Source: a virus
Strand: one strand, 5' to 3'
Virus record (IMG/VR): IMGVR_UViG_3300036828_000242
Location: 1-30,644 of that record
DNA length: 30,644 nucleotides
Shown here: one piece after another, positions 6,623 through 24,406 of the stretch
Numbering within the stretch: position 1 is the first letter of the stretch
How the letters are laid out: each line of letters opens with the position of its first letter
Notes under the pieces: model-generated
Databases searched by the model: none
Told to the model about the DNA's origin: nothing
The model's input: only the letters and a program-made list of their open reading frames with translations
Program-made: the position numbers and the translations under genes

Positions 6623-6641
6623 CTATAAACGAAAGAAATTG

Positions 6642-6748
6642 TTTGGGAGCGAGATGGAAATTTTCCTCCCAAATCGTCCAGGGGTATGATAGCATTAGGA
6701 GGTTGAAATCGCAAGCTAATCTTGGGAGAGGAAAATATTCCTCCCAGG
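6642..6748 (+). repeat. Pair of related hairpins between capsid and HNH genes
   Basis: Two similar stem-loops lie in the leader of the next gene. The first pairs TTTGGGAG (6642-6649) with CTCCCAAA (6666-6673), with GGAAA/TTTCC inside. The second pairs CTTGGGAG (6721-6728) with CTCCCAGG (6741-6748), again with GGAA/TTCC inside. They are about 50 nt apart. No T-run follows either stem, so classical intrinsic terminators are unlikely. Confidence 0.55.
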
Positions 6749-6765
6749 TTTTTGGAGGGGTAATA

Positions 6766-7770
6766 ATGACAGAAGAAATTTGGAAAGACATCAAAGCTAT
6801 CCATGATCATCAAGCAGAGTGGCCTTTCCATCAAGTTTCAAACCTTGGACGTATTCGAGTTCTTCCAAGTGGTGTTGTTGGAGGAAGTCGTAAAGTAAGA
6901 GTGACTGAGCTTCGAACGTTGTCACGTCAAAGTTCAGGTTACATGACCATTAAGCATGGCAAACAGACGATGTATGTTCATCGTATTGTATTGCATGCAT
7001 TTGTTGGACCTTGTCCTCCTGGATTAGAGTGTCGTCATCTTAGTGGTAACCGTTCTGATAACCGTTGGCCTGAGAATATTAAGTGGGGTACGAAGGAGGA
7101 GAATACTGAAGATCGTGCTCGTCATGGAATGGACCTTATCGGTGAACGTAATAGCCAAGCAAAGCTAACTGAGTCTGAAGTTCTTGAGATCAAAGATCTA
7201 CTACCGCATTTTTCTGACAAAAAATTGGCCAAGAGATACGGTGTTTCATATGGTACTATCTGGAAAATTCGTAGCGGTCGTAAGTGGCGTCATCTTACTC
7301 AAAGAGAACCTGATGTGAAAATGGCCATTTGTCCTTATTGTAGAGATGAAGTGAGAGACGAGGATTTTCTTAGTCATATTGAGATGCATCCTGTTGATGA
7401 TATGCGTTGGAGAAATTGTCTAGATTGTGGGATAAGAACTGATCATATGGGTGAGTGGTATATTGTAAATGAGAATCTTTGGGATTCAGTTGTTCCTGAG
7501 GATAAAGATCCTGATGGAGAATATCGAGGCGGATTTTGTCTATGTGTAGGGTGTTTAGAGGCTAGGTTAGGTAGGAAACTTATAGAAGAGGATTTCACTG
7601 ATTGTTCTTTGAATTCTGACGAAGAAGGTTCAAGATCAACTCGTCTGTTAGATAGAATGGGAATTAGAAAGTTCGTTGTCAATCCAGAGTGGGAGACCAT
7701 GGCTAATGAGTGGTATCAAGTTCATAGTATCGTGACTCCTGAGAACCCGAACTTGTACTACGTAGACTGA
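6766..7770 (+). CDS. NUMOD4-HNH homing endonuclease with zinc-finger tail
   Basis: Start at the ATG at 6766, preceded by TTGGAGGGG. Residues 4-35 are a NUMOD4-type motif (EEIWKDI...WPFHQVSNLGRIRVLPSG); residues 70-115 are the HNH core (YVHRIVLHAFVGPCPPG, CRHLSGNRSDNRWPEN, WGT). Residues 128-175 form a helix-turn-helix-like DNA-binding part (KLTESEVLEIK...LAKRYGVSYGTIWKIRSGR). A C2H2-like finger follows (C189, C192, H204, H208). The last 120 residues are acidic, with further Cys pairs, and I do not recognise them; the usual family is much shorter (about 170-200 aa). It sits directly behind the capsid gene. A broken relative lies at 27377-27903. Confidence 0.9.
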   Translation: MTEEIWKDIKAIHDHQAEWPFHQVSNLGRIRVLPSGVVGGSRKVRVTELRTLSRQSSGYMTIKHGKQTMYVHRIVLHAFVGPCPPGLECRHLSGNRSDNRWPENIKWGTKEENTEDRARHGMDLIGERNSQAKLTESEVLEIKDLLPHFSDKKLAKRYGVSYGTIWKIRSGRKWRHLTQREPDVKMAICPYCRDEVRDEDFLSHIEMHPVDDMRWRNCLDCGIRTDHMGEWYIVNENLWDSVVPEDKDPDGEYRGGFCLCVGCLEARLGRKLIEEDFTDCSLNSDEEGSRSTRLLDRMGIRKFVVNPEWETMANEWYQVHSIVTPENPNLYYVD

Positions 7771-7775
7771 GGTTT

Positions 7776-7987
7776 GAGACGAGAGACTAGTCTTTCTCCC
7801 TGATCTAGTGTCTTGTCTCTAAGAGGATGGGATCACCCGGCAGCATCCCATCCTCTTCAAAATAGGAGGTAGAGTTAACTGGGCAAATCTCTATCTCCTT
7901 GTGTTGAGACCAGACAAGCATCCACTGCAAGGTCTGTCTCAATGGGGAGGATGGAGTTGCCTTTGTTGGTTTTCCCCAATTCCATCC
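7776..7987 (+). ncRNA. Five consecutive hairpins, candidate structured RNA
   Basis: Five stems follow one another with almost no spacer: 7776-7790/7805-7819 (15 bp with one G-U and one mismatch), 7821-7833/7845-7857 (13 bp, perfect), 7865-7874/7889-7898 (10 bp with one G-U), 7904-7915/7932-7942 (11 bp with one bulge), and 7949-7958/7978-7987 (10 bp with one G-U). TGGGGA at 7943-7948 can also pair with TCCCCA at 7973-7978, which would interleave with the fifth stem. The block fills the gap between the HNH stop (7770) and the methyltransferase start (8012). It may be a stable RNA, a processed leader, or a terminator array; no T-runs follow the stems. Confidence 0.5.
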
Positions 7988-8011
7988 TACCTCAATTTTA
8001 AGGGGAAATAT

Positions 8012-8581
8012 ATGGCGGATGGGGGGATTTCTGTCTGGGATAAAGAATGGTGGGGAGATTGTACGAATACTTTTGGTGAAGAGGTAAGACAGTTACTATA
8101 TGCTGAGAAGATGGGTTTGGTTAGAACGGAGACACAAAAGTCCCCGTTTCTTTTTGACATGAAAGGTGCTTCGATAATTGATATTGGTGGTGGACCTGTA
8201 TCTCTATTGCTTAAATGTATCAATTTCACTGGAGTTGTAGTTGATCCTGGTCCTTATCCTGAATGGGTTCATGAGAGATATAAAACAGCTGGGATTAGAT
8301 ATGTTATTGAGATTGGAGAGAACTTGAATGTCATTGGTCATGACGAAGCTTGGATCTATAACTCACTACAGCATACAGTTAATCCTTATCTCGTCATCGA
8401 CAATGCAAAGAGAGCCGCTAAGACAGTTCGTATCTTTCAATGGATCAATACTCTAGTGACTCCAGATAGTCCGCATGTTCTTACCAGGAATCTTCTTGAC
8501 AAAGCTTTGGATATTAGAGGTACGGTGGAGGCTATAAATTTATTTGGATACTATGCATACGCGTATTACGGAACAACGTAA
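8012..8581 (+). CDS. SAM-dependent methyltransferase-like protein
   Basis: The 189-residue product has a Rossmann-type class I methyltransferase pattern: SIIDIGGGP (motif I, D57-P62), a strand ending in an acidic residue, GVVVDPG (D78), then DEAWIYNSLQH (about 111-121), where the substrate-facing motif IV usually lies, followed by NPYLVIDNAKRAAKTVRIFQW. I place the start at the ATG at 8012 with AAGGGG about 7 nt upstream; the open frame extends further left, but only through the hairpin block. The substrate is unknown; Asp-Pro-Pro-Tyr type DNA-methylase motifs are absent, so DNA is less likely. Its place between capsid and neck genes is unusual. Confidence 0.65.
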   Translation: MADGGISVWDKEWWGDCTNTFGEEVRQLLYAEKMGLVRTETQKSPFLFDMKGASIIDIGGGPVSLLLKCINFTGVVVDPGPYPEWVHERYKTAGIRYVIEIGENLNVIGHDEAWIYNSLQHTVNPYLVIDNAKRAAKTVRIFQWINTLVTPDSPHVLTRNLLDKALDIRGTVEAINLFGYYAYAYYGTT

Positions 8582-8596
8582 CAGTGGAGACGGACC

Positions 8597-9136
8597 ATGC
8601 CTTTTACTACTCTACAGGATCGGGCATTACAAATACCTCGTCAGACTTTTGGTGGTCAATACCCCAGAGCCAACTTTAAGCTAGGTGAAGTACACACAAT
8701 CCTTCCCCCAGTTGGACACGGTACTATCAACTGTCAAGGAATAGATCTTCCACCTGAGGGTAAAAAGCTTCAAATTACGAAAGAATTAGTAGCACTTATT
8801 CAAGCTGGGTTTATTCGTATTGCAGTTGATATTACCAATCCTGATGCGGACAAGCACGGTTCTCCTGCACCTGATTCTAGCGTTGGTCCTGAAGTCAGTA
8901 AAAGTGTTGAGAGTAATACTCAGGTTACCGTTGGAGTTTCTCCTCCTCTTTCCAAAGATACCTTGACGACATCTTCGGTTTTTTTCTCTTCAATTGAAGA
9001 AATCGAATCTTGTCAGGATAGGGAGAAATTGCGTTTGTTTGTCAAGAGCAAGAATGGTTATGAAAATGAGAACTCTCACATTGATGGTTTGCGAGATTTA
9101 TCTTTGAAATTATTTCAGGAATGTTTGAATGTGTGA
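8597..9136 (+). CDS. Unknown virion-region protein, 179 aa
   Basis: ATG at 8597 preceded by GGAGAC. The N-terminal 75 residues look beta-rich (VHTILPPVGHGTINCQGIDLPPEGKKLQITKELVALIQAGFIRI), followed by a Ser/Pro/Thr-rich linker (about 80-125) and a charged helical C-terminus (EKLRLFVKSKN, GLRDLSLKLFQE). This two-domain layout with a disordered linker fits a small head-completion or decoration protein, but I recognise no family. Its stop overlaps the start of the HNH gene that follows. Confidence 0.65.
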   Translation: MPFTTLQDRALQIPRQTFGGQYPRANFKLGEVHTILPPVGHGTINCQGIDLPPEGKKLQITKELVALIQAGFIRIAVDITNPDADKHGSPAPDSSVGPEVSKSVESNTQVTVGVSPPLSKDTLTTSSVFFSSIEEIESCQDREKLRLFVKSKNGYENENSHIDGLRDLSLKLFQECLNV

Positions 9137-9560
9137 ACATGAGAAAGAATTGGTCCCTTGGGGAAAGGGAAAGACAGGTGAGCAGCGTTTTCGGTTTATG
9201 TGCCGAGAATGTGAGCGTTCGCGGGTACGTCAATACAAGAATCATCCAGGTAAACGAGAGTGGGATATAAGAAATAGGGCTAAGCGTGTAGCTCATAAGA
9301 TAGTCGAGAGTGCCTTAATTTCTGGAAAGTTGGTTCATTCTCCATGTTGCTGCTGTGGCTCTAATGATAGTCATGCTCATCATGAGGATTATAGTAAACC
9401 TCTAGAAGTAGTTTGGCTATGTCCATTTCATCATAGTGAACGTCACAGAGAGCTGCGTTCCTCCCCAACTAGAGTAGAAGGTGGTATACAATCGTCTTCT
9501 ACTCCTTCTTTTTTATGTATTGAGGAGGGTGCTTTCGTTAAGGAAAGACCTGATGTCTGA
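9129..9560 (+). CDS. HNH endonuclease, Cys-rich HHEDY type
   Basis: ATG at 9129 overlaps the previous stop. Residues 17-45 carry a first Cys pair and basic region (CRECERSRVRQYK). The HNH core is CCCCGSNDSHAHHEDY, about residues 75-90, then KPLEVVWLCPFHHSERH: two CxxC pairs for a structural zinc and the His-His-x-Asp active-site pattern common in small phage HNH proteins. The C-terminal 30 residues are Ser/Thr-rich and read into the start of the next gene, which overlaps by 8 nt. Likely a freestanding homing endonuclease. Confidence 0.88.
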   Translation: MCEHEKELVPWGKGKTGEQRFRFMCRECERSRVRQYKNHPGKREWDIRNRAKRVAHKIVESALISGKLVHSPCCCCGSNDSHAHHEDYSKPLEVVWLCPFHHSERHRELRSSPTRVEGGIQSSSTPSFLCIEEGAFVKERPDV

Positions 9561-10326
9561 TGTTATTACACGTAATACTGATTATAAGCTAACCTCTATC
9601 GAGAACTATCTAAGGTCACAACTTGGCGATCCTATTGTTGCTGCACTTACTGAAGAGACCGACGCAATCCAAAACGCTCTTAACTTAGCTCTTACATCTT
9701 ATTGGACAGCTTTCCCTCATTCATGGATGACTCAATACTCATCTAAAGCTCAGGGTACAATAACAGATAACGTTGATAATATTATGAGTATGGCTTTCTA
9801 TGGAAACCCAGATGCCCAGGCGAAAGCGTATTTTCTTGGTGTTACTCGGATCGAAGATGGTGCTCTTGGTGCAATTGGCAATAACATTGATTCGTATCTT
9901 TTGGGAGTTCCTTATCCTAATCCTTCCTATAAGGTTTATCCTGGAGCGCTCGATCTTGCAGAGATTGTTAGATACAGAACAGAGGTTGGAATCATTACAG
10001 GCGAGATAGAAACACAATACGATGAGGTCTCTAGGGTTGTCAGGTTCATAACTCCAAACGCTTATGGTCAGTTCACAGTTTTCTATGCATTCGGATTTAC
10101 CGAAGACTCAGGACTAACATATGTTCCTAATAGACATGTTGATATGCTTCGTAAGATTACCGCTTACGAATTCATAACCTCAGTCTTGAATGCTAGAGGC
10201 GGTGTTCAAGTTATAGCTGATTTCAAACTTGATCTGACGTTTCTCTCTAAGCGAAGAGATGAATTGAAAGAAGACGTAGAGAAAGAATTATATCGTAACC
10301 AGATATCGACAGTTATGTGGGGATAA
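9553..10326 (+). CDS. Probable neck / head-tail connector protein
   Basis: The start is the ATG at 9553 (AAGGA about 8 nt upstream), inside the end of the HNH gene; the longer frame from 9481 would add a hydrophobic segment encoded over the HNH gene and is not credible. The 257-aa product opens with an LRSQLGDPIV...LTEETDAIQNALNLALTSYW pattern seen in phage neck/adaptor-type proteins, where an N-terminal helical bundle docks at the portal. The middle is beta-rich (SYKVYPGALDLAEIVRY) and the C-terminus is helical and charged. T4 gp13/gp14-like function is inferred from size (T4 gp14 is 256 aa), position after the capsid gene and this pattern. Confidence 0.5.
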   Translation: MSDVITRNTDYKLTSIENYLRSQLGDPIVAALTEETDAIQNALNLALTSYWTAFPHSWMTQYSSKAQGTITDNVDNIMSMAFYGNPDAQAKAYFLGVTRIEDGALGAIGNNIDSYLLGVPYPNPSYKVYPGALDLAEIVRYRTEVGIITGEIETQYDEVSRVVRFITPNAYGQFTVFYAFGFTEDSGLTYVPNRHVDMLRKITAYEFITSVLNARGGVQVIADFKLDLTFLSKRRDELKEDVEKELYRNQISTVMWG

Positions 10327-11345: not shown

Positions 11346-11594
11346 GTGCCAGTTACAACACTTCCGGGCAGTCTAAATGTAAATTCTCCTGAGTGGACTA
11401 CTGCCCATAAGGATGTCCCACCGGAGTGGCTTTCACAAGTTGACCATCCTTGTGCAGTATCTGGCCGTCAAGGAACGATGCAGATAGTAAATGGTAAACT
11501 AGTGTGTGTCGTGACTCCTAGAGAATCTGAAGAAAGAATAAGGATAAGAAATATTATCCGTGAACTAGTTGACAGGAAACTTAATCTTGGTTAG
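11346..11594 (+). CDS. Unknown protein with one Cys-pair module, 82 aa
   Basis: GTG start at 11346 with AGAGGAAG 5-6 nt upstream. Residues about 34-58 (HPCAVSGRQGTMQIVNGKLVC) match the module repeated four times in the 17021-18625 protein: Pro-Cys, Gly, Gly, then a hydrophobic Asn-Gly-x-Leu-Val-Cys strand. The C-terminus (RIRNIIRELVDRKLNL) is an amphipathic helix also found at the end of the 12092-12565 product. The gene is therefore a single module plus a docking-type helix. It ends over the 3' end of an antisense HNH gene (14-nt overlap). Function unknown; a virion protein is plausible from position. Confidence 0.7.
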   Translation: MPVTTLPGSLNVNSPEWTTAHKDVPPEWLSQVDHPCAVSGRQGTMQIVNGKLVCVVTPRESEERIRIRNIIRELVDRKLNLG

Positions 11595-11988
11595 CTTTGC
11601 GTTTAGCCCGTGTCTGTCGAACTGCGATGCGTATTTTTTCTTTCGTTTCCTCAGACATTGTTTGCCCTAGCCTTTTCTGTCTCATCTTTTGTTTCGTATC
11701 TTCTGATACTGGTCGTCTGTTTTTTGCTTGTTCAGATCGTGTTGCCCATTTGCAGTTTGATTTTTCATAGTTGCCATTATTATCTATACGTTCTAAAGTG
11801 TGACCTTCTGGCTGGAGTCCCATGTCTGCAAGAAAGTTTTCAAACTTAGACCAAGGTTCACACGGTTTGATACCACGTTTACCGTAGTTCTTGTAGTCTT
11901 TGTTTTTTGGGTTATTACATCTTTGTATCATCATTTGCCAGCTACGATATGTTTTGCTTCCAAAATGTCCATGTATTCGATTAGCCAT
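11581..11988 (-). CDS. HNH homing-type endonuclease with NUMOD3-like tail
   Basis: ATG at 11988 with GGAGG 6-7 nt upstream. The first 95 residues are the HNH core shared with the other two antisense relatives: YRSWQMMIQRCNNP, YGKRGIKPCEPWSKFENF, LERIDNNGNYEKSNCKWAT, then EQAKNRR. Unlike them it has no N-terminal zinc module; it ends in a NUMOD3-like DNA-binding repeat (VSEDTKQKMRQKRLGQTMSEETKEKI). It is read against the virion genes and ends inside the 3' end of the gene at 11346. Its own promoter and a 5' hairpin are visible upstream. Confidence 0.9.
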   Translation of the reverse strand: MANRIHGHFGSKTYRSWQMMIQRCNNPKNKDYKNYGKRGIKPCEPWSKFENFLADMGLQPEGHTLERIDNNGNYEKSNCKWATRSEQAKNRRPVSEDTKQKMRQKRLGQTMSEETKEKIRIAVRQTRAKRKANQD

Positions 11989-12016
11989 GGTAACCTCCAG
12001 ATAAGGTTGTCATGAA

Positions 12017-12050
12017 GTGACGGCCGAATGCTCCAACACTCGGTCGTCAC
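12017..12050 (-). other. 5'-leader hairpin of the antisense HNH transcript
   Basis: On the minus strand GTGACGACCGA (12050-12040) pairs with TCGGCCGTCAC (12027-12017) over 11 bp with one G-U. The stem begins about where transcription from the promoter at 12053-12081 should start, so the HNH message would carry a 5'-terminal hairpin. It could stabilise the message; the ribosome site lies further downstream and is not in the stem. Confidence 0.45.
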
Positions 12051-12052
12051 AC

Positions 12053-12081
12053 ATCGTATCAGAAAATATGACGAGTGACAA
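12053..12081 (-). promoter_or_regulatory. Sigma70-like promoter for antisense HNH gene
   Basis: Read on the minus strand: TTGTCA (12081-12076), a 17-nt spacer, and TACGAT (12058-12053). This matches the sigma70 consensus at 5 of 6 and 4-5 of 6 positions with ideal spacing, and lies 65 nt ahead of the HNH start at 11988. The same cassette, with conserved spacer and downstream bases, is found ahead of the antisense HNH gene at 16395-16910. Confidence 0.65.
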
Positions 12082-12091
12082 GGAGTCTCAA

Positions 12092-12565
12092 ATGAAACCA
12101 TTGGCATTTGCCCAATCTGCTGTTAATAGTTTGTTGGAGACTAGGAAGAAAACTCCGAAGGATACCAACATGGACGATGTTATCACAGAATCAGTGACCT
12201 TACGTTTCTCTTGTCCCAGTCGAGTTCAACTTGCCAAGGTAGCTAATTATTTCAGCATTGGTAGGGCGACGGGAGGGCTTGGCAAGATCATAGTTCGTCC
12301 TGTCCAAGGTACTATGGGTAACTGGTATTTCGATGTATCCTCTAATGAGGAGAATCAATTCCTTAATCCTAACCATATGAATAATATTTTGCCAGCTGAA
12401 GTAACTGTGACAAGAATGACAGGTGGGCCAGTACCTACTACACAAACTGCATCTCAAGATGAGACAAGAAACATTATTCGTGAAATGGTTGAAAAGAAAT
12501 TGACTGAAGCTGGTTGGCCAAACGAAGCTAAGTCCGCAGCAAGTCTGGCAAGGCGACATAAATGA
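12092..12565 (+). CDS. Unknown protein with C-terminal RNIIRE helix, 157 aa
   Basis: The ATG at 12092 has AAGGAG 6-7 nt upstream and is the best start; the open frame extends back to 12017, but through the HNH leader hairpin. The N-terminus (KPLAFAQSAVNSLLETRKKT) is helical; a central beta-rich region (VTLRFSCPSRVQLAKVANYF, KIIVRPVQGTMGNWYFDV) looks like a small globular fold; and the C-terminus has ETRNIIREMVEKKLTEAG, like the end of the 11346 product. The overlap of stop and ATG with the next gene suggests coupling. No known family. Confidence 0.65.
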   Translation: MKPLAFAQSAVNSLLETRKKTPKDTNMDDVITESVTLRFSCPSRVQLAKVANYFSIGRATGGLGKIIVRPVQGTMGNWYFDVSSNEENQFLNPNHMNNILPAEVTVTRMTGGPVPTTQTASQDETRNIIREMVEKKLTEAGWPNEAKSAASLARRHK

Positions 12566-12804
12566 TGGCTAGTCGTGTTAATACTCCGAGAACTGTAGGA
12601 GATATTGGTGCACATAAGGAAGCAGCAGGTCTTCATAAGACAGCTAGTGAACATTTTGAGAGAGCAGCAGGTGCATATAGGAGAGGGGCGTCTAAGGAAG
12701 CTGAATCGCATATGGAAAAAGGTCGAGTTAGTGGAGCGCATGCGAAGCTTTCTAGTCAGAATACAGGCTCCGGTCATTTCTTTAAAGGGATTGAATACAT
12801 ATAG
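12562..12804 (+). CDS. Small Ala/His-rich helical protein, 80 aa
   Basis: Starts at one of two tandem ATGs (12562 or 12565) overlapping the previous stop. The centre (residues about 18-62) is a repeated helical pattern with Ala, His and Glu at regular spacing: HKEAAGLHKTASEHFERAAGAYRRG, then KEAESHMEKGRVSGAHAK; this resembles a TPR-like or helical-hairpin protein. Phage and bacterial proteins with such AAxxH repeats are known but without clear function. The ORF ends where the GTG of the next gene begins. Confidence 0.6.
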   Translation: MMASRVNTPRTVGDIGAHKEAAGLHKTASEHFERAAGAYRRGASKEAESHMEKGRVSGAHAKLSSQNTGSGHFFKGIEYI

Positions 12805-13016
12805 TGTCTCATATTCTAAAGTTTCTTGAAGACACTTGGGGTGCAGCACCAGCTGGTCCTGATCGTGCTATCAATACCAAGTTACTAAGTAACGACGACG
12901 ATCGATATAGATACGATTTTGCTAAACAATGGCCAGGAGATACATTCAAGAAGGGTCGTATGAGAAAGAAAAAACGTACAGTCGGGAGGGATACGTGGAA
13001 GAAGACCAATTTTTGA
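12804..13016 (+). CDS. Small protein with MSHILKFL tag, 70 aa
   Basis: GTG start overlapping the previous TAG by one base; no strong ribosome site, so coupling is likely. MSHILKFLEDT at the N-terminus matches the tag at 13882 (MSHVLKVLEDT) almost exactly. The middle is polar (DDDRYRYDFAKQW), the end very basic (RMRKKKRTVGRDTWKK). The nuclease at 12929 starts within this gene in another frame. Function unknown. Confidence 0.5.
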   Translation: MSHILKFLEDTWGAAPAGPDRAINTKLLSNDDDRYRYDFAKQWPGDTFKKGRMRKKKRTVGRDTWKKTNF

Positions 13017-13897
13017 TCATTGATGGTATTCCTGTTAAGGAGGACAAAACTGAACTAATTAGATCAGGCCAAGATGTTAAAGCTACTGGAGTCGCTGGTC
13101 CGTGTCCCACGTGTAGTTGGTCTGGAACTTATGAACAACTTGTTGAAGTTGACTACACTTATAAATATACAATTAAAGCACTAACTTGTCCTTCTTGCGG
13201 TGCTAGGCTTTGTGCTGGATGTACTGTTGTCGCTTTACCTTATAGTAAAAGAAGATATTGTTGTAATTCTTGTAAGAATATCGGTAGACCTTATTTGGAA
13301 GGTACAGCAGAAAAACACCGTATTAACATGCTTGGTAATAAATATGGCAGTCATGCAGTAAGTGAAGAACATAAGAAGGCGATATCCGAGGCATTGCGTA
13401 TACGCTGGAAAAACCCTGCATATAGAGAACGTGAGTCAAAGCTAGCGTCAGAACGATTTCGTAAGATGAATGAGAAGAATTGGGCTAATCCTGAGTTCAG
13501 AGCACGTAGATCTGAATTAGGAGTTCCTCATTTTAAAGGTTTTCATGATTCCCCTAAGGCTGGTAGAGTATTTTATAGATCAAGTTGGGAGAGAGATGCC
13601 TGTCTTGGCTTAGACGATTGTCCGAGGGTTAAGATGTATACATTTGAGCCTTTTACGGTTCCATATATTGATTCTTCTGGAGTGGATCGGCTCTATTGGC
13701 CAGATATACTAGTGGAATATTATGACAGAGCGCCTGATCTGGTGGAAATTAAGCCTAGGAAACTTTTGAGGTATCTTAACGTTCAGCTTAAAATCAGGGC
13801 AGGAGAGATTTGGGCTGAGAACTTAGGTATGAATTTTTCTGTGTGGACAGAGGAAACTTGGCCTAAAGAGATTGTAAGAGAATGTCTCACGTATTAA
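12929..13897 (+). CDS. PD-(D/E)XK nuclease with Cys4 and NUMOD-like parts
   Basis: The C-terminal 110 residues carry a PD-(D/E)XK nuclease core: YRSSWERDACLGL, then YWPDILVEY (D259) and LVEIKP (E273, K275), and QLKIRAGEIW. Ahead of it are Cys pairs (CPTC...CPSC, then CAGC and CCNSC, residues about 60-120) suitable for zinc, and NUMOD3-like segments (VSEEHKKAISEALRIRWKNPAYRE). A close relative is at 14709-15479. I infer a freestanding homing endonuclease of the PD-(D/E)XK class. The start is unsure: the ATG at 12929 overlaps the tagged gene at 12804 by 88 nt, and a later TTG near 13013 is possible. Its 3' end overlaps the next gene. Confidence 0.75.
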   Translation: MARRYIQEGSYEKEKTYSREGYVEEDQFLIIDGIPVKEDKTELIRSGQDVKATGVAGPCPTCSWSGTYEQLVEVDYTYKYTIKALTCPSCGARLCAGCTVVALPYSKRRYCCNSCKNIGRPYLEGTAEKHRINMLGNKYGSHAVSEEHKKAISEALRIRWKNPAYRERESKLASERFRKMNEKNWANPEFRARRSELGVPHFKGFHDSPKAGRVFYRSSWERDACLGLDDCPRVKMYTFEPFTVPYIDSSGVDRLYWPDILVEYYDRAPDLVEIKPRKLLRYLNVQLKIRAGEIWAENLGMNFSVWTEETWPKEIVRECLTY

Positions 13898-14193
13898 AGG
13901 TTTTGGAAGACACTTCTCAAAGTGGTCAAATCGGTGCATATTTGTACGGATATCATTCTGGTTTTTGGAAGGTCCAGCAGGGGCCTAACCAGCCTACAGC
14001 AATGATTCCAAGTCACCAAGTTTATGGTCATGACGGGGTGACGAAGATTATAGGTAAGCCGGGTTTGAAAGGTCGAGTTGTTAAGACTAAGAAGGGCAAC
14101 GCTTTCCATTCAGATGACAGCGGTGGCCCGGTCTCTAACCCGGTCGGGGGTACACCACATACCGTAGGGGTAGACTATACGTCTCGTATATAG
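13882..14193 (+). CDS. Protein with MSHVLKVL tag, 103 aa
   Basis: ATG at 13882, 16 nt inside the end of the nuclease gene. N-terminal MSHVLKVLEDT is the same tag as at 12804. The remainder is Gly-rich and beta-like (GAYLYGYHSGFWKVQQGPNQP, VTKIIGKPGLKGRVVKTKKG, SNPVGGTPHTVGVDY), as in small SH3-like or decoration-type folds; I do not recognise a family. Followed by a short gap with the next gene starting 13 nt after the stop. Confidence 0.65.
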   Translation: MSHVLKVLEDTSQSGQIGAYLYGYHSGFWKVQQGPNQPTAMIPSHQVYGHDGVTKIIGKPGLKGRVVKTKKGNAFHSDDSGGPVSNPVGGTPHTVGVDYTSRI

Positions 14194-14205
14194 GATGTAA
14201 CACTC

Positions 14206-14706
14206 ATGCCAAATCTGTTACAATTGGTACAAGGTACAGAAGCAGTCCTACCAACTGCTATGATCAAATACGCTTCTGGAGAAAATATTGTCGAGAGTAT
14301 ACGAGTAACGACTTTCGTTGGTTCTAAAATGAAAGTAGTTACTTCAACGATTAGAGCATCCGGGAGAACTACCAGAGCTACGCCACCTGATTATTTACCG
14401 CAGCTAGCCTATATTGTACAGTTTGCATTCTATGGTGTTGACACACAGAAAGAGCCTCCTAGTCCTCTTAACAAAGTTGGAGGTAGGTGTTCCTGCAAGG
14501 CATATTACTTCTGGTTTGCTTGGCCTAACATGGCTCATGGTGCTTCGTTTGGGACTAGGTTTAAACCTTACGTTCGGCGTACGCCTCCGGATGACAAACG
14601 TTATCCTCCTAAAAACCCTCATAATATACCGGGTTTATGCAAGCATCAGTTACTATTAGCAGCAACTTTACAGAATTCAGACTTTTACAAAAGGATAGGA
14701 GCATAA
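14206..14706 (+). CDS. Unknown protein with SWIM-like zinc motif, 166 aa
   Basis: ATG at 14206, preceded by AGGATG about 12 nt upstream. Near the C-terminus C95-x-C97 and C145-x-H147 (CSC...GLCKHQLLL) fit the CxCxnCxH layout of a SWIM zinc finger; the intervening 47 residues are longer than usual but Pro/Arg-rich, consistent with a loop. SWIM domains bind DNA or protein in other contexts. The N-terminal half is beta-rich (IRVTTFVGSKMKVVTSTIRASG). Position among head-tail genes suggests a virion or assembly part; the function is unknown. Confidence 0.6.
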   Translation: MPNLLQLVQGTEAVLPTAMIKYASGENIVESIRVTTFVGSKMKVVTSTIRASGRTTRATPPDYLPQLAYIVQFAFYGVDTQKEPPSPLNKVGGRCSCKAYYFWFAWPNMAHGASFGTRFKPYVRRTPPDDKRYPPKNPHNIPGLCKHQLLLAATLQNSDFYKRIGA

Positions 14707-14708
14707 CA

Positions 14709-15479
14709 ATGAGAGATCTTTCTAAGATATATGGTCCGACGTTGAAATGTAAAAACCCTTCTTGTAATAACGAAGCTGGTTATAAGTCAAATGGCAGTAA
14801 GAGAACTTTTTGTTCTAAAAACTGTCATATGCAGTATCAATGGAATGATCCTACGTTTGCTTCTATGGTAGCTTCTAATTCATCTGAGAGGATGACTAAA
14901 CTTCATCAAGATGAAGAGTTTGCAAAATCTCATTCTCTTAGAAGGTCTAAGCAATTTACTGAGATGAATCTAAAGAACTGGGAAGATCCAGAATATCGTG
15001 ATTACATGACAGGTGTGATAAGAGAGAACATTAAAAAGTCTCCAATAGGCACATTCGGTTGGCATGATTCTCCTAAGGCTGGTCATATTTACTACAGGTC
15101 TACTTGGGAATTAAAGGCGTACAAATATCTAGATTCTTCTCCTGAAGTGAAGTCTTATTCTACGGAATCTATTCGAATACCTTACCATACAGTCGGGCGA
15201 GAACATAATTATTATCCGGATATTGTAGTCGAGTATGTTGATGAATCAAAAGAGGTTGTTGAAATTAAACCTGAGTATAGATTGTCAGAAGTCGATACAC
15301 AGTTGAAGATTTTAGCAGGAGTAAAGTGGTCTTTAGAGAATAACACTCCTTTCTCTGTTTGGACTGAGAATAATTGGCCATGTCCTTTTGGTAAATTCAT
15401 TCCTTATCGAGAAGATTGGGGTGATTTTCAACAGCCACTTATTGTCGATGCGTCTGGCAATTGGACTACAGAAGAATAG
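14709..15479 (+). CDS. PD-(D/E)XK homing-type nuclease, paralogue of 12929 gene
   Basis: ATG at 14709 with AGGAG 7 nt upstream; 256 aa. An N-terminal Cys cluster (CKNPSCN, CSKNCH, residues about 14-38) is followed by NUMOD-like repeats (MNLKNWEDPEYRDYM), then the nuclease core: GHIYYRSTWELKAYKYL, YYPDIVVEYV (D171), VVEIKP (E185, K187), QLKILAGVKW and FSVWTENNWP. The last block and the FGWHDSPKAG lead-in are shared with the 12929-13897 product. The C-terminus runs into the collagen-like gene's ribosome site. Likely a freestanding homing endonuclease. Confidence 0.8.
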   Translation: MRDLSKIYGPTLKCKNPSCNNEAGYKSNGSKRTFCSKNCHMQYQWNDPTFASMVASNSSERMTKLHQDEEFAKSHSLRRSKQFTEMNLKNWEDPEYRDYMTGVIRENIKKSPIGTFGWHDSPKAGHIYYRSTWELKAYKYLDSSPEVKSYSTESIRIPYHTVGREHNYYPDIVVEYVDESKEVVEIKPEYRLSEVDTQLKILAGVKWSLENNTPFSVWTENNWPCPFGKFIPYREDWGDFQQPLIVDASGNWTTEE

Positions 15480-15487
15480 GTGACTTG

Positions 15488-16051
15488 ATGGCTATCACAC
15501 AAGATGATCTTGATGCACAAATTGATGCTGACCTACCCTCAAATATATTGGGTGGTGTTCAGCTAAATGAGCTTCGGACTGTTCTTCACGATGTTAGCGA
15601 AGCTATATTTCAGCCAGGTGGAGTTGAAGGACCTCCAGGTCCTCCAGGACCTACGGGGCCTCCCGCTCCTCCTGGTCTCCCTGATAAGTCTATTCAGTTT
15701 AATTCTGGGGGTGTTCTTACTGGTGATCCTAGTTTAACTTTCGATGGTTCTACTGTTTATTGTGGAACTGGAACAGCTTCAACTTCACCTACTACCGGTG
15801 ATCTTGTAATAGTTGGAGGTGCTGGTATTGGTGGTTATTTGAATGTTGGAGCTAATATTCGTGTTGTAGGTATAATTAATAATCTTCCAATGACATTTGC
15901 ACAATTACCTGCTTCACCTGTTTTTGGAATGATGGCTTCGATTTCAGATTCAAATACTAAAAATCAAGGACAAGTTATTACAGCTGGCGGAGGAGTAAAC
16001 CAAGTCTTTGCTGGTTATAGGGATGGAATTGGATGGGTGGTAATTGGATAG
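15488..16051 (+). CDS. Collagen-like virion fibre or decoration protein
   Basis: ATG at 15488 with AGGTGA just upstream; 187 aa. A short helical N-terminus (residues 1-42) is followed by a Gly-x-y run at 45-63 (GVEGPPGPPGPTGPPAPPG), then a beta-rich domain with DKSIQFNSGGVLTGDPSL and a C-terminal part that ends in GYRDGIGWVVIG. Collagen-like triple helices followed by such repeats are common in phage fibres and head fibres, where they trimerise. The preceding nuclease gene ends 9 nt ahead of the start. Role in the particle inferred. Confidence 0.8.
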   Translation: MAITQDDLDAQIDADLPSNILGGVQLNELRTVLHDVSEAIFQPGGVEGPPGPPGPTGPPAPPGLPDKSIQFNSGGVLTGDPSLTFDGSTVYCGTGTASTSPTTGDLVIVGGAGIGGYLNVGANIRVVGIINNLPMTFAQLPASPVFGMMASISDSNTKNQGQVITAGGGVNQVFAGYRDGIGWVVIG

Positions 16052-16057
16052 GTGGAT

Positions 16058-16426
16058 ATGTTAATCGTAGAAATGAACGATCCGCACTTTGTAGCTATAC
16101 GGTCATTCGAGATTTCTACTGATAAAGGTACATGTGTTATTGGAGAAAGCGAGCCTTGCTCTTTTGTGTCTGATCCTGACGGCAATGCCTTTATAGGTAA
16201 TGGTGGTACAGTACTTCAAATTGAGCACAATACGGCTCTTTCTGATGTTATGGGTATGATAAGTCCGGCAACGTTTAAGCTTGTTGCAGAGGACAGTGGA
16301 GAGATGAGTCTGTGTGCTAGTTTGATAGAACCTAGACAGATTACTCCTATGCGAGTTGAAAAGCGTTTTAGTGATGTGGCCAAAATCACATCGATTAGAC
16401 CGTTTGAGGTGGCTCAGTCAGAATAA
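16058..16426 (+). CDS. Unknown protein, 122 aa
   Basis: The best start is the ATG at 16058, with AGGTGGA just upstream (a GTG at 16052 is also in frame). The product is mostly beta-like: [20 protein letters not shown], then [41 protein letters not shown]. It has no family I know. It follows the collagen-like gene and its 3' end overlaps the antisense HNH gene by 32 nt, so its last codons and those of the nuclease use the same bases. Confidence 0.6.
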
Positions 16427-16910
16427 TGGTTTTCTTTCTTCTGTTGTTAGCTTGCTCTTTTCGTGTCGCCCATCTGCAATTACTCTTTTCGTAACCTTTG
16501 TCGTTATCGATACGTTCTAGTGTATATCCTTTTGGTTTTGGACCCATGTCAGCAAGAAAGTTTTCGAAGGAATGCCAACGTTCGCATACGGTAATACCAC
16601 GACCACCGTAATCCTCATAGCCTGTAGCATGAGGATTACGACATCGGGACAACATATCTGACCACGTGGAATGTTCTGTTGTTTGCCCTTTTCTACTAGC
16701 ATGTCCATGGGTTTTTGCGTGAGACCTTTTCCAGCAACCACACGAAGTTGTTTGGCCAGAACGTAAGTCCCAGCTAGTGATTGTTTTGTCGGTATCACAG
16801 TCGCAATGACATAACCAGAGTACTCTACCGCGCTTGTCTCGACCAGCAATCTTGATAACTACTAGGCGACCAAAACGTTGGTCCGTGAGGTCTACGATTT
16901 TGGGACTCAT
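16395..16910 (-). CDS. HNH homing-type endonuclease with one zinc module
   Basis: ATG at 16910, with GAGG 8 nt upstream. Residues 5-58 are one copy of the zinc module ([15 protein letters not shown]...WLCHCDCD...TTSCGC); the remainder is the HNH core: [50 protein letters not shown], then EQANNRR. Compared with relatives in this window it stands between the three-module form (255-1118) and the module-free form (11581-11988). Transcribed antisense from its own promoter; 3' end overlaps the neighbouring virion-region gene. Confidence 0.92.
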
Positions 16911-16946
16911 GGTTGAACCTCTAGTTGGAGCGTTCGATCGTCACGC

Positions 16947-16975
16947 ATTGTACCCTAAAAGGATGACGTTAACAA
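16947..16975 (-). promoter_or_regulatory. Sigma70-like promoter for antisense HNH gene
   Basis: On the minus strand TTGTTA (16975-16970), a 17-nt spacer and TACAAT (16952-16947) form a good sigma70-type promoter, 37 nt ahead of the HNH start at 16910. The spacer (CGTCAT, then TTTT) and the bases after the -10 box (GTGACGA, CGA) match the promoter at 12053-12081, so both were probably copied along with their nuclease genes. Confidence 0.7.
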
Positions 16976-17020
16976 TGCCTAACTTCACCGTTGAAAAGGA
17001 CGCTTTTAGGGAGTAATCAA

Positions 17021-18625
17021 ATGAAGTTATCCACTTATACGGGTACTGCCCTGGTTATCGAAACTAAGAGTGACAGGATCACTTACAATAAGGGAGCTTA
17101 TATTCAATTAGAGATCGATAAAAATGATGATCCAATAATCGTACATCATCGACTTGTGGAAGTGGAACAACTATCAGATCAAAAAGACCCTGATTCCAAG
17201 AGGGTTAAGACTACCAAGGTAGAAACTCGGTATCTGAAATTCACTCGTTTGGAAGACCTGAAGTTCATTACTGAGAACCTTTTCTTCGAAAACCAATTCT
17301 CCTCAGTTATCGGCGTTGTAGATATTAGTATGACTGATGCATTGTTGAAGGAGAATGTTAGTCCCGACCTGATGACTGCTTATCTCAGTAACAAGCAGTC
17401 TTCATTGCAGAAGACCTATGTCAAGGATGGGATCACGCATGTTCGCATCCCAGTCAAGTCTCTCGCTAAAGACCTTACCGTTCTGGAGAAACTGAAAACA
17501 TTTTCTGAGTTTGACAGGATCGATACATCAAAGATCAAGGTCGAGGACATTAATATTATCTCAGTACGTGAGAAGAACAAACTTCAAGAGAACAGGTATC
17601 TCGTCATTCCAGAGGCTCTTTATAATGATATAGATAACAAGCTTCTAGGTTACGTCTGTGGCGAGATTGCTGAGGCTGCTCCTAAAGACTGGAAAGTTCG
17701 GGTGGTGGATAGCTCAATCAGAGTTACTATCAATGGGGCTGCACCGTATTCTTTATACAATATACTAGAGACAATTCCGGTTTCGATCAGCTATAACACC
17801 GTCAAAAAGGACGAGGACTCGTACATAGAAATTTCAATGAGAAGGCCTGATGAAGAGAAACTTGTTGAGAGCTTTTATACTAAACCTACTCCGTACGATG
17901 ACTTCCTTGTGGAAGATGATGGTAACGATGAAAAGAAGGAAGGTGATCCCTGCGAGGCAAGGGGTAAGAAAGGTAGATTGAAGAAGTCAGGTGATAGTTT
18001 CGTTTGTATGGTCGAAGAGTCTTATGAGGATGACCTTGACCTTGATGAAGTGTTTCTGGAGGGGGATGTCTGCGGACCAGATAGCAGAGGTGTTCTAAAA
18101 ATGATTGGGGAGGATCTTTGCTGTGTGATTGAGAATACTAGCTATACTCAACACTACACTGGATACAAAACAGTTACTGAACAAGGTAAGGAAGGTGATG
18201 CTTGTGAGAAGGACGGTAAGAAGGGAGAGCTTTGCAAGATTGGCGATAACCTTGTTTGTAAGATCAAAGAGTCTGAAGAGCAAGTGTTGTTTACGTGTCT
18301 GACTGAGGGTGATGCTATGCCTTGTGAAGGTGACCCGTGCGAAATGCATGGCCAACCTGGCAGACTGATGATGGTCAATGGTGCACTCGTGTGCAGTCTT
18401 GACGGACAACCACCAGTGGGTTCAGATAGAGGTGCAGGAGATGGTGGTGCGAATGAGTCTCAGGATGGCGTAGGTGAGAAGAAGTTTGGTAAGGATTTTG
18501 GACGTTTCAGGAAGTCATATGATGCTAGTCCAGAAGAGCTTGCTGCGACTTGGGGAAGTGGCAAGAAAATGAAGAAGTGGATGAAGAAAACTAATAAGGA
18601 TATTGATAGGCTTCGGGGTAAGTGA
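17021..18625 (+). CDS. Large virion-region protein with four Cys-pair modules
   Basis: ATG at 17021 with AGGGAG 7-8 nt upstream; 534 aa. Residues 1-290 are mixed alpha/beta, without a recognised fold (LKFTRLEDLKFITENLFFENQF, VEDINIISVREKNKLQENRY). From about residue 307 come four copies of a 25-30-residue module, starting near 307, 347, 391 and 436: EGDxC, a Gly-rich turn, KG-x-L, then a hydrophobic strand ending in Cys (LVCKI or similar). Acidic linkers separate them. The C-terminus is Gly-rich then very basic (KKMKKWMKK). A fifth copy of the module is in the 11346-11594 product. Function unknown; a structural role is likely from size and location. Confidence 0.75.
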   Translation: MKLSTYTGTALVIETKSDRITYNKGAYIQLEIDKNDDPIIVHHRLVEVEQLSDQKDPDSKRVKTTKVETRYLKFTRLEDLKFITENLFFENQFSSVIGVVDISMTDALLKENVSPDLMTAYLSNKQSSLQKTYVKDGITHVRIPVKSLAKDLTVLEKLKTFSEFDRIDTSKIKVEDINIISVREKNKLQENRYLVIPEALYNDIDNKLLGYVCGEIAEAAPKDWKVRVVDSSIRVTINGAAPYSLYNILETIPVSISYNTVKKDEDSYIEISMRRPDEEKLVESFYTKPTPYDDFLVEDDGNDEKKEGDPCEARGKKGRLKKSGDSFVCMVEESYEDDLDLDEVFLEGDVCGPDSRGVLKMIGEDLCCVIENTSYTQHYTGYKTVTEQGKEGDACEKDGKKGELCKIGDNLVCKIKESEEQVLFTCLTEGDAMPCEGDPCEMHGQPGRLMMVNGALVCSLDGQPPVGSDRGAGDGGANESQDGVGEKKFGKDFGRFRKSYDASPEELAATWGSGKKMKKWMKKTNKDIDRLRGK

Positions 18626-20513: not shown

Positions 20514-20535
20514 CTATAAACTAAGGATGGTATCT

Positions 20536-21102
20536 ATGGAAAGCTATCAAGTACTTGACGAACTACCTTTAGAAATAACGAATGATGGATATAAAACTCA
20601 TCCTTACTATGAGTACTTCCGTAGTATGCTAAAGAGAGCTAAGAAGCTGGGGATACCGTGTGATTTCACTGGATGTTTAGAATTATTCAACAAGTGGCTG
20701 GAAGTAATAGGTTCGATCCCTGTTGGAATGAAAATTCCTACTGTAGGTAGATATGATCACAAGAAAGGCTATGTTTATGATATAGAAATGAATAGATGGA
20801 ATTTTAGATGGCAACCAAAGAGTGACAATAGTAGAGAGGCTGCGCTTAGGACGACTCCGTTCAAGACGATGACCCCGGAAAATCTCGCTAGTGCAGGTCG
20901 CAAAAGTGCTATGGTTCAGTTGGAAGCTGGGACTCATATCAATCAGCTTGGTAAAGCTGGGTGTCAGACTGGAGTAGCTCAGAAGGCTGCAATTGAAAGT
21001 TTAAATCATATTAGCAAACGGTTTACTACTTGTCCGGGGTGTGGCGTGGCTAAGCGAGGACCTATGTGGAAGTTTCACTGTAATAATCTTCTATGTCAAT
21101 AG
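20536..21102 (+). CDS. HNH-like nuclease of the RYDHxKGY family
   Basis: ATG at 20536 with AAGGA 8 nt upstream; an ATG at 20527 is too close to the ribosome site. The core (about residues 70-92) is VGRYDHKKGYVYDIEMNRW, with a preceding PYYEYFRSMLKRAKKLG and FNKWLEVIG as in the relatives at 10329 and 23828. A GTHINQ segment follows, then a C-terminal zinc finger (CPGCGVAKRG...FHCNNLLC) close to the end. It is inserted between the 19572 gene and the small gene ahead of the sheath. Probable homing endonuclease. Confidence 0.78.
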   Translation: MESYQVLDELPLEITNDGYKTHPYYEYFRSMLKRAKKLGIPCDFTGCLELFNKWLEVIGSIPVGMKIPTVGRYDHKKGYVYDIEMNRWNFRWQPKSDNSREAALRTTPFKTMTPENLASAGRKSAMVQLEAGTHINQLGKAGCQTGVAQKAAIESLNHISKRFTTCPGCGVAKRGPMWKFHCNNLLCQ

Positions 21103-21387: not shown

Positions 21388-23799
21388 ATGGCCGTCTATA
21401 TTGCTCCAGGAGTTTATGCGCGAGATGTTGACTTATCAGCAATTGTTCAAAACCAAGCTACTTCTGTAGGAGCTATTGTTGGACAGGCAGAGCGAGGTCC
21501 TGTCAACAAGAGGGCGCTTTTTACCAATGTTGGTGGGATTACTACGATTAATGGTAAGCCTAATACGGATTATGGTTACGCGATGTACTGTGGTATTTGT
21601 GCTCTAGAGGAAATGACTCAGTTATATTTCACAAGGATTTGTGTCGAAGGTCGATATGCAGGTGTTTTGGTTAATCAGGCAGGACTTACTGAAACTGTTA
21701 TTAACCAGTTTTCTACAGCGAATGGTACTAGCAGAATTTTTGCTGGTATATTGCCTATGGTTCCTCTTGTGTCGCTTACGAGCCTTAACTTTGGCTCTGG
21801 AGACGTGCCCGTTCAGGTTTATAAGGAACAGCAGCTTGGACTAGGTGACGGATCTACGTCTTCGTTTACCAGTTTCTTGTCTGGTGCGCCTATCAGTACT
21901 TTATTTGCTATTATGAATGGTAATACTCAGATCAATGTTACAGTCGACTCTCTTGGCAATGTCACGGGTGTTGGAATAACCTCCGGGTTCCTCAATAAGC
22001 AAACGGGTAGTCTTACTATCCAGCTTGCATCGCCTCCTGTGTCTAATACCGTCATCACTGCTAGGTATATGTCAGTTTCTGGCGATAGTAACATTTTCGG
22101 TGTTGGTATTACTAGTGGCACTATCAATTATGTTTCTGGTGTGATTAACGTTACCTTTAATACGCCTCCTCCTAACCATCAAGCCATTTCGGCTACCTAT
22201 GTCTCTGACAATCCTACTACACCATTAGGTGAAGGCGTTCTCAGTGAGGCACCAGATGCCTTCCCAGTCAATATGACACAGGTGATTGGAACTGGAGACA
22301 ATAGTAATCCAACTTTTGCTGCAACATTGTCTCCTACACCGATCGTCACCCTTCAGGAGATTCATATAGGCACGACAGTTATTCCTGTCGTAGTAGATAG
22401 CTTAGGGAATGTTACTGGCCAGGGGATCACAACTGGTATCTTGGAGCCTGAGGTTGGTGCTCTTGAAGTTACCTTTGCTGTAGCTCCGGGGACAGGTGTT
22501 CCTATCTCTGCTAAATTCAACGGTTCGGACACTACTCATACTTGCTTTATGATCTACGCAGAAAATCCTGGCAAATGGGGCAATAATATTAGTGTCCAAG
22601 TTCAGCCTGTTGCCTGGGACCCTACCGCTTTCAGACTCGTCATTCAAGAAACGTCGAGTGGAGTACACATTACCAAAGAGGTCTGGGAAGTCTCTCGAAT
22701 ACCTAACCAGAAAGATGGTTATGGAAATAATATGTATTTGGAGACCAGGATTAACGGTCTCTCAAACTATATAAGAGTCCTAGATAACGTAGATATCCCC
22801 AATACAGTAATGCCTGCCTTTACCACTTATCCTGTGTACTTTACTCAAGGGGACGATGGTACTGCTATTACGTCTGGCGATATCATCCAGGCTTGGCAGC
22901 TATATGCCAATCAAGCGGTTGTTGATATCAATATTCTGATAAATGGCGGCTACGTCTCTGACGATGACTGGTCGGTGCAAGAGTCCATCCAAGCTCTTGC
23001 TGAGAAACGTCGTGACTGCTTTGCTATCTTTGACATACCTTTCGACCGTACTGAGATATCTCCTATTACTTATGCGTCTGATTGGAGACTGAACTACCAG
23101 AATATTGAGTCCAGCTTCACGGCTTTGTACTCGCCTTGGATAAAGTGTTACGATAGTTATAACGATATTCCAAATCTACCAATTCCTCCATCCGGTTTTG
23201 CTGCTCAGGTCTTTGCCCGTACCGACTGGGTGACTTACCCTTGGTATGCCCCTGCTGGTTACAATAGAGCGGTATTGCGGTCAGAGACACTACCGCCTAT
23301 GGACGTGACCGTTCGTTATGATCAGCAGGGGGAGATCGAAGCGCTGTACGGTAATCCCGTCAACATCAACCCGATCATCTTCTCTCCAGGGGACGGTATC
23401 GTCATTTTTGGTCAGAAGACACAGCAATCTAAGCCTTCTGCTTTGGATAGGATCAATGTCAGGCGGTTGATTATCACTTTTGAGCGTGCGGCAAAACAGT
23501 TTCTGAAGTACAAGCTCTTTGAGTTGAACAATCAATATACTCGGTTGGATATTGAAACTGCTATCAATCAATATCTTACTACAGTGCAAGCTCAAAACGG
23601 CGTCTATACATTCAAGACGGTCTGTAATGAAAGTAACAATACTCCACAGATCATAGATGCGAACCAATTGAATGTGGATGTGTATCTACAACCAGAGAAG
23701 GATGCGGAATTCATTCAGTTGCAAAACATTATAACAGCGACTGGTGCGAACTTTCAGGTAATACAACGTGGCTTCAATCTTTCTATAGCACAGCAATAA
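21388..23799 (+). CDS. Tail sheath protein, gp18-like, with inserted beta domains
   Basis: ATG at 21388 with TAGGAG upstream. The N-terminal AVYIAPGVYARDVD and ATSVGAIVGQAERGPV, and the C-terminal RLIITFERAAKQFLKYKLFELN and VCNESNNTPQIIDANQLNVDV, are landmark sheath regions; contraction of this protein drives the tail tube into the host. At 803 aa it is longer than T4 gp18 (659). The extra part is about residues 140-385: two copies of a beta domain (GDGS...VDSLGNVTGVGIT, and GTGDNSNPTF...VDSLGNVTGQGIT) with a half-copy between them. These likely lie on the outer surface. The same kind of domain occurs in the capsid protein. Confidence 0.95.
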   Translation: MAVYIAPGVYARDVDLSAIVQNQATSVGAIVGQAERGPVNKRALFTNVGGITTINGKPNTDYGYAMYCGICALEEMTQLYFTRICVEGRYAGVLVNQAGLTETVINQFSTANGTSRIFAGILPMVPLVSLTSLNFGSGDVPVQVYKEQQLGLGDGSTSSFTSFLSGAPISTLFAIMNGNTQINVTVDSLGNVTGVGITSGFLNKQTGSLTIQLASPPVSNTVITARYMSVSGDSNIFGVGITSGTINYVSGVINVTFNTPPPNHQAISATYVSDNPTTPLGEGVLSEAPDAFPVNMTQVIGTGDNSNPTFAATLSPTPIVTLQEIHIGTTVIPVVVDSLGNVTGQGITTGILEPEVGALEVTFAVAPGTGVPISAKFNGSDTTHTCFMIYAENPGKWGNNISVQVQPVAWDPTAFRLVIQETSSGVHITKEVWEVSRIPNQKDGYGNNMYLETRINGLSNYIRVLDNVDIPNTVMPAFTTYPVYFTQGDDGTAITSGDIIQAWQLYANQAVVDINILINGGYVSDDDWSVQESIQALAEKRRDCFAIFDIPFDRTEISPITYASDWRLNYQNIESSFTALYSPWIKCYDSYNDIPNLPIPPSGFAAQVFARTDWVTYPWYAPAGYNRAVLRSETLPPMDVTVRYDQQGEIEALYGNPVNINPIIFSPGDGIVIFGQKTQQSKPSALDRINVRRLIITFERAAKQFLKYKLFELNNQYTRLDIETAINQYLTTVQAQNGVYTFKTVCNESNNTPQIIDANQLNVDVYLQPEKDAEFIQLQNIITATGANFQVIQRGFNLSIAQQ

Positions 23800-23827: not shown

Positions 23828-24406
23828 ATGTCAAGGAAAACAGGAAAGTATTCTGGATACTCGTCTCATCCTTTGTACCAACGTTTTTGCGATATGATAC
23901 AGAGAGGTAAAGACGTAGGCTGTGATTTTGAGCTTGAAGAAGAAAACTTCTATCTTTGGACGGAAGTTATCGGGCCAGTCCCACCGGCTATGGAATGTCC
24001 GTCTGTTGGTCGATATGATCATTCGAAAGGTTATGTCTTTGATCACGAGAACAACAGGTGGAATTTTAGGTGGGAGGAGTGGCGGGATAATAATCTAGAG
24101 GGTGCTGCTAGAGGGCGAGAGGCCGCTCTTGCTGGTCCTAATCATGCAAGTAAGAACCCGGAGATAATGAGACAGATCAACTATAGCCAGTTGGCTAAAG
24201 GTACTCATAATAGCCAAATTAAGAGTTCAGAGGAACTTGCAAAAATGGCAAGAAATCGGGTTAAGGCAGCCATTGCTAATGGAAACCATTTGAGTCAGCA
24301 GTGGTACACGTGTGATTCTTGTGGTCGTACTATTGGAGGTCCTTGGGGCAAGCGTCACATGGACACCAAACCATGTCAAACGGTAGAACAGAGAGGAGTA
24401 CGATAA
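23828..24406 (+). CDS. HNH-like nuclease of the RYDHxKGY family, next to the intron
   Basis: ATG at 23828 with AAGGGGAAA upstream. The core (residues about 58-82) is VGRYDHSKGYVFDHENNRW; earlier parts match the relatives (HPLYQRFCDMIQRGKD, FYLWTEVIG). GTHNSQ follows at about residue 120, then a C-terminal zinc finger (CDSCGRTIGG...KRHMDTKPC). Its TAA overlaps the tail tube ATG, and the group I intron begins 57 nt further on, so it may serve that intron by cutting the intronless site (inference). No nuclease ORF is inside the intron. Confidence 0.8.
   Translation: MSRKTGKYSGYSSHPLYQRFCDMIQRGKDVGCDFELEEENFYLWTEVIGPVPPAMECPSVGRYDHSKGYVFDHENNRWNFRWEEWRDNNLEGAARGREAALAGPNHASKNPEIMRQINYSQLAKGTHNSQIKSSEELAKMARNRVKAAIANGNHLSQQWYTCDSCGRTIGGPWGKRHMDTKPCQTVEQRGVR

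Follow-up and report, generated by a model that had tools for sequence, protein, structure and literature searches.

The stretch of viral DNA analysed here, the whole of the 30.6-kb virus record IMGVR_UViG_3300036828_000242 and hereafter called the window, carries structural genes of an uncultivated, contractile-tailed phage. Within its head-neck-tail gene cluster a short unit with a pair of cysteine residues, referred to below as the module, is encoded four times in one protein and once in another (Table 1). The preliminary description of this DNA had placed four copies in the product of 17021-18625 and one in that of 11346-11594, and both its coordinates and its residues were right: EGDPC, EGDVC, EGDAC and EGDPC begin at residues 307, 347, 391 and 436 of the former, in each case with a Gly turn and KG-x-L or a similar stretch coming next and the second Cys 17-18 residues further along, and the latter contains HPCAVSGRQG...NGKLVC. 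Both Cys residues are in place in all five copies with little variation in spacing, as had been claimed, the pattern being C-x17-C in four of them and C-x16-C in copy 2.

Of the 13 cysteine residues of the four-copy protein, 12 fall within the repeat region and one in the preceding 306 residues. The module region is acidic, with a net charge of -17 across about 157 residues. Relatives of the protein were found in three viral contigs, L002 (79% identical), L004 (71%) and L003 (56%, a contig of 147 kb), and in all three the four copies are in register. Copies that share a position have an identity of 0.75 from genome to genome, against 0.44 between the different positions of one genome. The copies are orthologous by position, and the duplications are therefore older than these phages. 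The modules are better conserved than the N-terminal part of the protein in three of three comparisons, and between the window and L002 their ratio of nonsynonymous to synonymous substitution rates (dN/dS) is about 0.07. The proteins at the matching position in phiXF1 and QdP_Psa3 have no homology to the 534-amino-acid (aa) protein, which is lineage-specific as far as tested. Upstream of the four-copy gene, 15461-16051 encodes a protein with collagen-like GPP/GPT repeats, of which L003 holds several long ones in 12304-18063.

The single-copy protein was found again in L002 and L003, L004 ending short of that region. In both contigs the copy lies in the N-terminal part of a protein of 350-360 aa, and the C-terminal part of the same protein matches the product of 12017-12565 in the window. 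The view of 11346-11594 as the gene of a small protein with one copy was thus only partly borne out: the copy is present, but in L002 and L003 the frame corresponds to only the N-terminal portion of its protein. The 12017-12565 part may be translated independently, because a Shine-Dalgarno-like AAGGAG precedes the ATG at 12092. The two frames end in a similar motif (RNIIRELVDRKL and RNIIREMVEKKL, in 11500-11594 and 12450-12500 respectively).

Table 1. Features of the window that bear on the module, with other structural genes (ORF, open reading frame)
Feature	Position	Strand	Remarks
534-aa protein	17021..18625	+	N-terminal part of ~300 residues, four tandem Cys-pair modules, Gly-rich and basic C-terminal tail
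Module copy 1 (KEGDPCEARGKKGRLKKSGDSFVCMVEE)	17936..18019	+	profile match
Module copy 2 (LEGDVCGPDSRGVLKMIGEDLCCVIEN)	18056..18136	+	profile match; shorter by one residue; third Cys adjoins the second
Module copy 3 (KEGDACEKDGKKGELCKIGDNLVCKIKE)	18188..18271	+	profile match; one additional Cys
Module copy 4 (CEGDPCEMHGQPGRLMMVNGALVCSLD)	18323..18403	+	profile match; first sequence in the AlphaFold2 model
82-aa frame with one module	11346..11594	+	N-terminal part of the longer L002 and L003 proteins
Single module copy (QVDHPCAVSGRQGTMQIVNGKLVCVVTP)	11436..11519	+	profile match
HNH-endonuclease-like ORF	11581..11988	-	between two gene parts that are continuous in L002 and L003; HNH by sequence appearance, not by family scan
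Homologue of the C-terminal part of the L002/L003 single-module protein	12017..12565	+	
Head protease	3510-4946		
Major head protein	5084-6622		
Sheath	21388-23799		

A consensus of about 27 residues was obtained for the module, G-[DE]-x-C-x(4-5)-[DN]-G-x-x-G-x-[LMV]-x(n)-[LMF]-[VI]-C, and the window copies fit C-x(4-5)-[DN/G]-G-x-x-G-x-[LMV]...[LMF]-[VI]-C with both Cys. Across 38 aligned copies C, G and C are invariant. The five window copies match the family profile with expectation (E) values of 1.4e-13 to 8e-17 within the window record, this profile including them. A profile of the 12 big-protein copies from three genomes recovered the three single-copy proteins (E 6.5e-6, 1.6e-5 and 0.0017) with no other match at E ≤ 1; conversely, the profile of the single-copy proteins recovered the big proteins at E 1e-9 to 1.5e-5.

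The unit is short and a loose pattern can match random DNA; 24 pattern matches in bacterial genomes look like chance, the frames around them giving at most 4.3 bits with the final profile. Nevertheless it is extremely improbable that the likeness of the two window proteins is due to chance or to convergence on a short hairpin, as the profiles match reciprocally with no cross-training, the module is conserved in independent phages and shuffled frames top out at 7.2 bits with the same profile. Reversed frames reached 15.4 bits, in the same module proteins. By these profile comparisons the module copies are shown to be one homologous family. Nor is the module peculiar to the two window proteins, being widespread in phages.

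When both proteins and the single repeats were scanned against Pfam, PHROGs and NCBIfam no matching family was found, and a search of the PDB by profile gave only noise. The module found no convincing neighbour in Foldseek/BFVD and VIA-align searches; a likeness to a capsid chain of PhiKZ (8y6v_I, Z score 2.1) is unproven and lacks a sequence match. The open papers searched contained no description of the module. The assertion that the pattern belongs to no named family thus holds for Pfam, PHROGs, NCBIfam and the PDB, by sequence and by fold, and no well-described domain surfaced in the profile search. Neither the 17021-18625 nor the 11346-11594 product matched a protease family in Pfam, PHROGs or NCBIfam, and these two carriers are therefore not proteases.

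AlphaFold2, with an alignment of 38 sequences, predicted a three-stranded beta-meander for the module, with strands at residues 8-11, 14-21 and 24-29 and a mean predicted local distance difference test (pLDDT) score of 86.4. The full-length model of the 534-aa protein, made from a four-sequence alignment, was poor (mean pLDDT 44), and the E-E-E pattern of strands was also seen in its module copies. The near-invariant glycines belong to the turn and to strand 2 of the predicted fold. Judged by where the strands end, the turns would be formed by the conserved [DN]G or HG and by NG/DG, with the first Cys probably facing the invariant Gly of strand 2. A common fold was thus predicted for the repeat, and the small stabilised hairpin that had been envisaged agrees with this beta-meander and with the near-obligatory co-occurrence of the two Cys.

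That co-occurrence was seen most clearly when the Cys columns were masked in the profile. Both Cys residues were still present in 97 of the 100 domains recovered, the other three all being copies of a single protein whose second Cys comes after a longer loop. The two Cys therefore act as a pair. They are probably bonded, either through a disulphide in the virion or at a metal site. A zinc ribbon or zinc finger has four metal ligands per unit; the module has two conserved Cys and no conserved His.

Carriers in other phages were gathered with degenerate DNA patterns over a viral collection and with profiles. The final profile recovered 109 domains, spread over 91 frames. Of these frames 81 are distinct; one copy is present in 73 of the distinct frames, two in four and four in four. 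Head maturation proteases make up most of the carriers and represent four or more family groups (S78-type, S49-like, phrog_328 and DUF2213). PHROGs matches among the 52 larger carriers were to phrog_80 (head maturation protease, 36), phrog_617 (head protein, 37) and phrog_11321 (38), the last an unnamed family matched by the same proteins as the other two. L068 and L136, whose sequences are S49/SppA-like, match phrog_53; for L095 and L126 the match is to the phrog_328 head proteases, and for L012, the first further carrier, to phrog_530/DUF2213. In the carriers inspected the module is usually directly C-terminal to the protease domain, before the remaining part, which is scaffold-like and often acidic or helical-looking. 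L012 is an exception: its order is ChaB-module-module-DUF2213, the module sitting between ChaB and the protease domain.

Further carriers gathered in this way were S78-type head proteases and small proteins with the ending GDACTCPDGRPGTL...LVC. These small carriers, of about 70-160 aa, have a low-complexity acidic or Ala-rich N-terminal part and the module as their C-terminus. Their frame starts 16-81 nucleotides after the major capsid frame in all 23 cases with a capsid gene in the locus (two pairs being near-duplicates). In L057, for example, protease (7859-10018), capsid protein (6583-7836) and small protein (6033-6503) are all encoded on the - strand. Six whole records were fetched via the small protein, and each of the six has exactly two profile matches, the second being in the protease. 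The same C-terminal module stands on two N-terminal types, MSDEQxNVDAGSETSGE and MSDELTALQxTAxQARAKADEL, a contrast seen between L047, L055, L058 and L069 on the one hand and L045, L057, L079 and L097 on the other. One domain is therefore present on several unrelated phage proteins: four protease family groups, small post-capsid proteins and the window proteins.

Large acidic Cys-rich phage proteins with a short- or long-loop module (e.g. GDECTLSDGSTGTIKDGVC) are encoded by L114 (5394-8480), L100 (4843-7989) and L076 (176-2497), and gave no PHROGs match. Three candidates were set aside as evidence: G007, which has internal stops, L038, a very short frame, and L094, a weak match in an 85-aa lipoprotein-like frame. 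There was no module match in 754 bacterial genomes of two classes, prophages elsewhere remaining possible carriers. A tblastn search of named phages with both window proteins and module peptides gave no convincing match, and the module is absent from ten named phages, reached via sheath, capsid or protease similarity, that were searched whole.

Because its carriers are mostly head proteases and small post-capsid proteins, the module looks like a reusable head-assembly part. We put at about even the chance that it is a thiol-paired mini-domain acting as a plug-in docking unit of phage head assembly, with a partner and a bond that we infer. The mini-domain would be an exchangeable part of head-morphogenesis proteins, docking its carrier on a common component of the growing head, perhaps the major capsid protein, the portal or the scaffold. 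A single partner would then serve both the protease and the small protein, or in the window both the four-copy and the one-copy protein, and avidity would come from tandem copies. Docking on a shared partner, which the preliminary description had held possible, gains weight because other phages again have the module in two proteins of a single genome, a head protease and a small capsid-adjacent protein. It is suggested more tentatively, as something short of an even chance, that the module is a common docking tag, acquired by independent protease lineages and capsid-adjacent small proteins for one conserved head site and amplified by the window phage to four copies in a head or neck protein.

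Several observations weigh against docking in head assembly. In 17 loci the module is present in the protease and in no small protein after the capsid gene, so the pairing of protease and small protein is not universal. The head protease of the window itself has no module, and head annotation is absent from L050 and from the large carriers L100, L114 and L076. The proportions among carriers are not population estimates, since the loci were fetched by module patterns and the share of proteases is open to ascertainment. Lastly, the cytoplasm in which head proteases act is reducing, and a disulphide would not be stable there.

A zinc clasp, in which two units of two Cys each meet as a four-Cys metal site and so oligomerise their carriers, within a tandem or between subunits, would work in that cytoplasm, the site of protease action. 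It would also suit a Cys pair that is effectively obligatory and repeated carriers that hold two or four copies, and LysW of a zinc-containing complex is a weak structural neighbour of the module (Z 2.4). However, this match is at noise level, 73 of the 81 carriers are single-copy, and the rest of the motif consists of turn glycines and hydrophobic residues with no conserved His or further Cys; the clasp is considered possible but unlikely. A passive role with no specific partner, as a structured spacer or hinge joining the protease and scaffold parts or as the carrier of a cleavage site, seems rather improbable. Such a spacer would be in keeping with a location that, in proteases of several families, directly follows the catalytic domain, but it leaves unexplained both the module as the extreme C-terminus of the small post-capsid proteins and the fourfold repeat in the window protein, and the greater conservation of the modules over the N-terminal part of that protein also speaks against it.

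The small post-capsid proteins, acidic and tethered, resemble decoration or fibre genes by their position, and disulphides suit an extracellular role. This could suggest a surface-exposed ligand- or host-binding decoration, with a role comparable to that of Ig-like domains on heads or tails. However, most carriers are proteases, whose established place of action in phages is the interior of the prohead, and a decoration of this kind is quite improbable.

The remaining products of the window include a tail tube, a baseplate hub and a tape-measure-like protein. The tail tube gene contains a group I intron in 24406-25210 (Rfam RF00028, 75.4 bits, 24454-24676). Exon 1 encodes MAGPVSINDVQGLVDPLKG immediately upstream of the intron and exon 2 runs on in the 24740-25210 frame; because the intron splits the gene, the listed start of that frame is not the true start. 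ORFs that resemble HNH or intron endonucleases by sequence appearance are unusually numerous among the structural genes, on both strands (for example 255-1142, 6643-7770, 9129-9560, 11581-11988, 16395-16910, 20527-21102 and 23828-24406). A CxC...CxH pattern in the 166-aa protein of 14206-14706 is reminiscent of a SWIM zinc finger; the protein is kept in phiXF1, QdP_Psa3 and several large phages.

The module is missing from the standard libraries tested, and several unrelated head proteases bear it at a similar position. If the docking tag is correct, it would account for the recruitment of proteases of different origin into proheads, and would provide a sequence handle for the head-assembly proteins of uncultivated phages.

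Among known systems, the KOW, tudor and SH3-like folds have a similar GD-x-x...G-x-x-G-x-[LV] flavour and a beta-meander, and the tudor domains of 53BP1 were weak structural neighbours at noise level (Z 2.0-2.5). The module differs from them in having three strands in 27 residues, a Cys pair and no family match, there being no Pfam match to this group even at E 10. The head proteases of Peptidase_S78/phrog_80, phrog_53, phrog_328 and DUF2213/phrog_530 share the module with the window carriers, which are not proteases themselves.

Ig-like and similar domains are promiscuous accessory domains of tailed phages, shuffled among virion and head proteins. The module is likewise a small domain borne, once or repeatedly, by virion and head proteins that are unrelated to one another. 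At about 27 residues it is much smaller than they are, and it differs further in having a nearly obligatory Cys pair and no Pfam match and in being found mostly in head proteases. Small shuffled domains are already known in phages, and the module is an apparently unnamed and different instance.

In Agrobacterium phage Milano, virion disulphides strengthen the head and neck (PMC10491603). The module may likewise place Cys residues in head and neck proteins, where they could be oxidised in the virion. The bonds of Milano are largely between proteins, whereas the two Cys of the module lie within one mini-domain.

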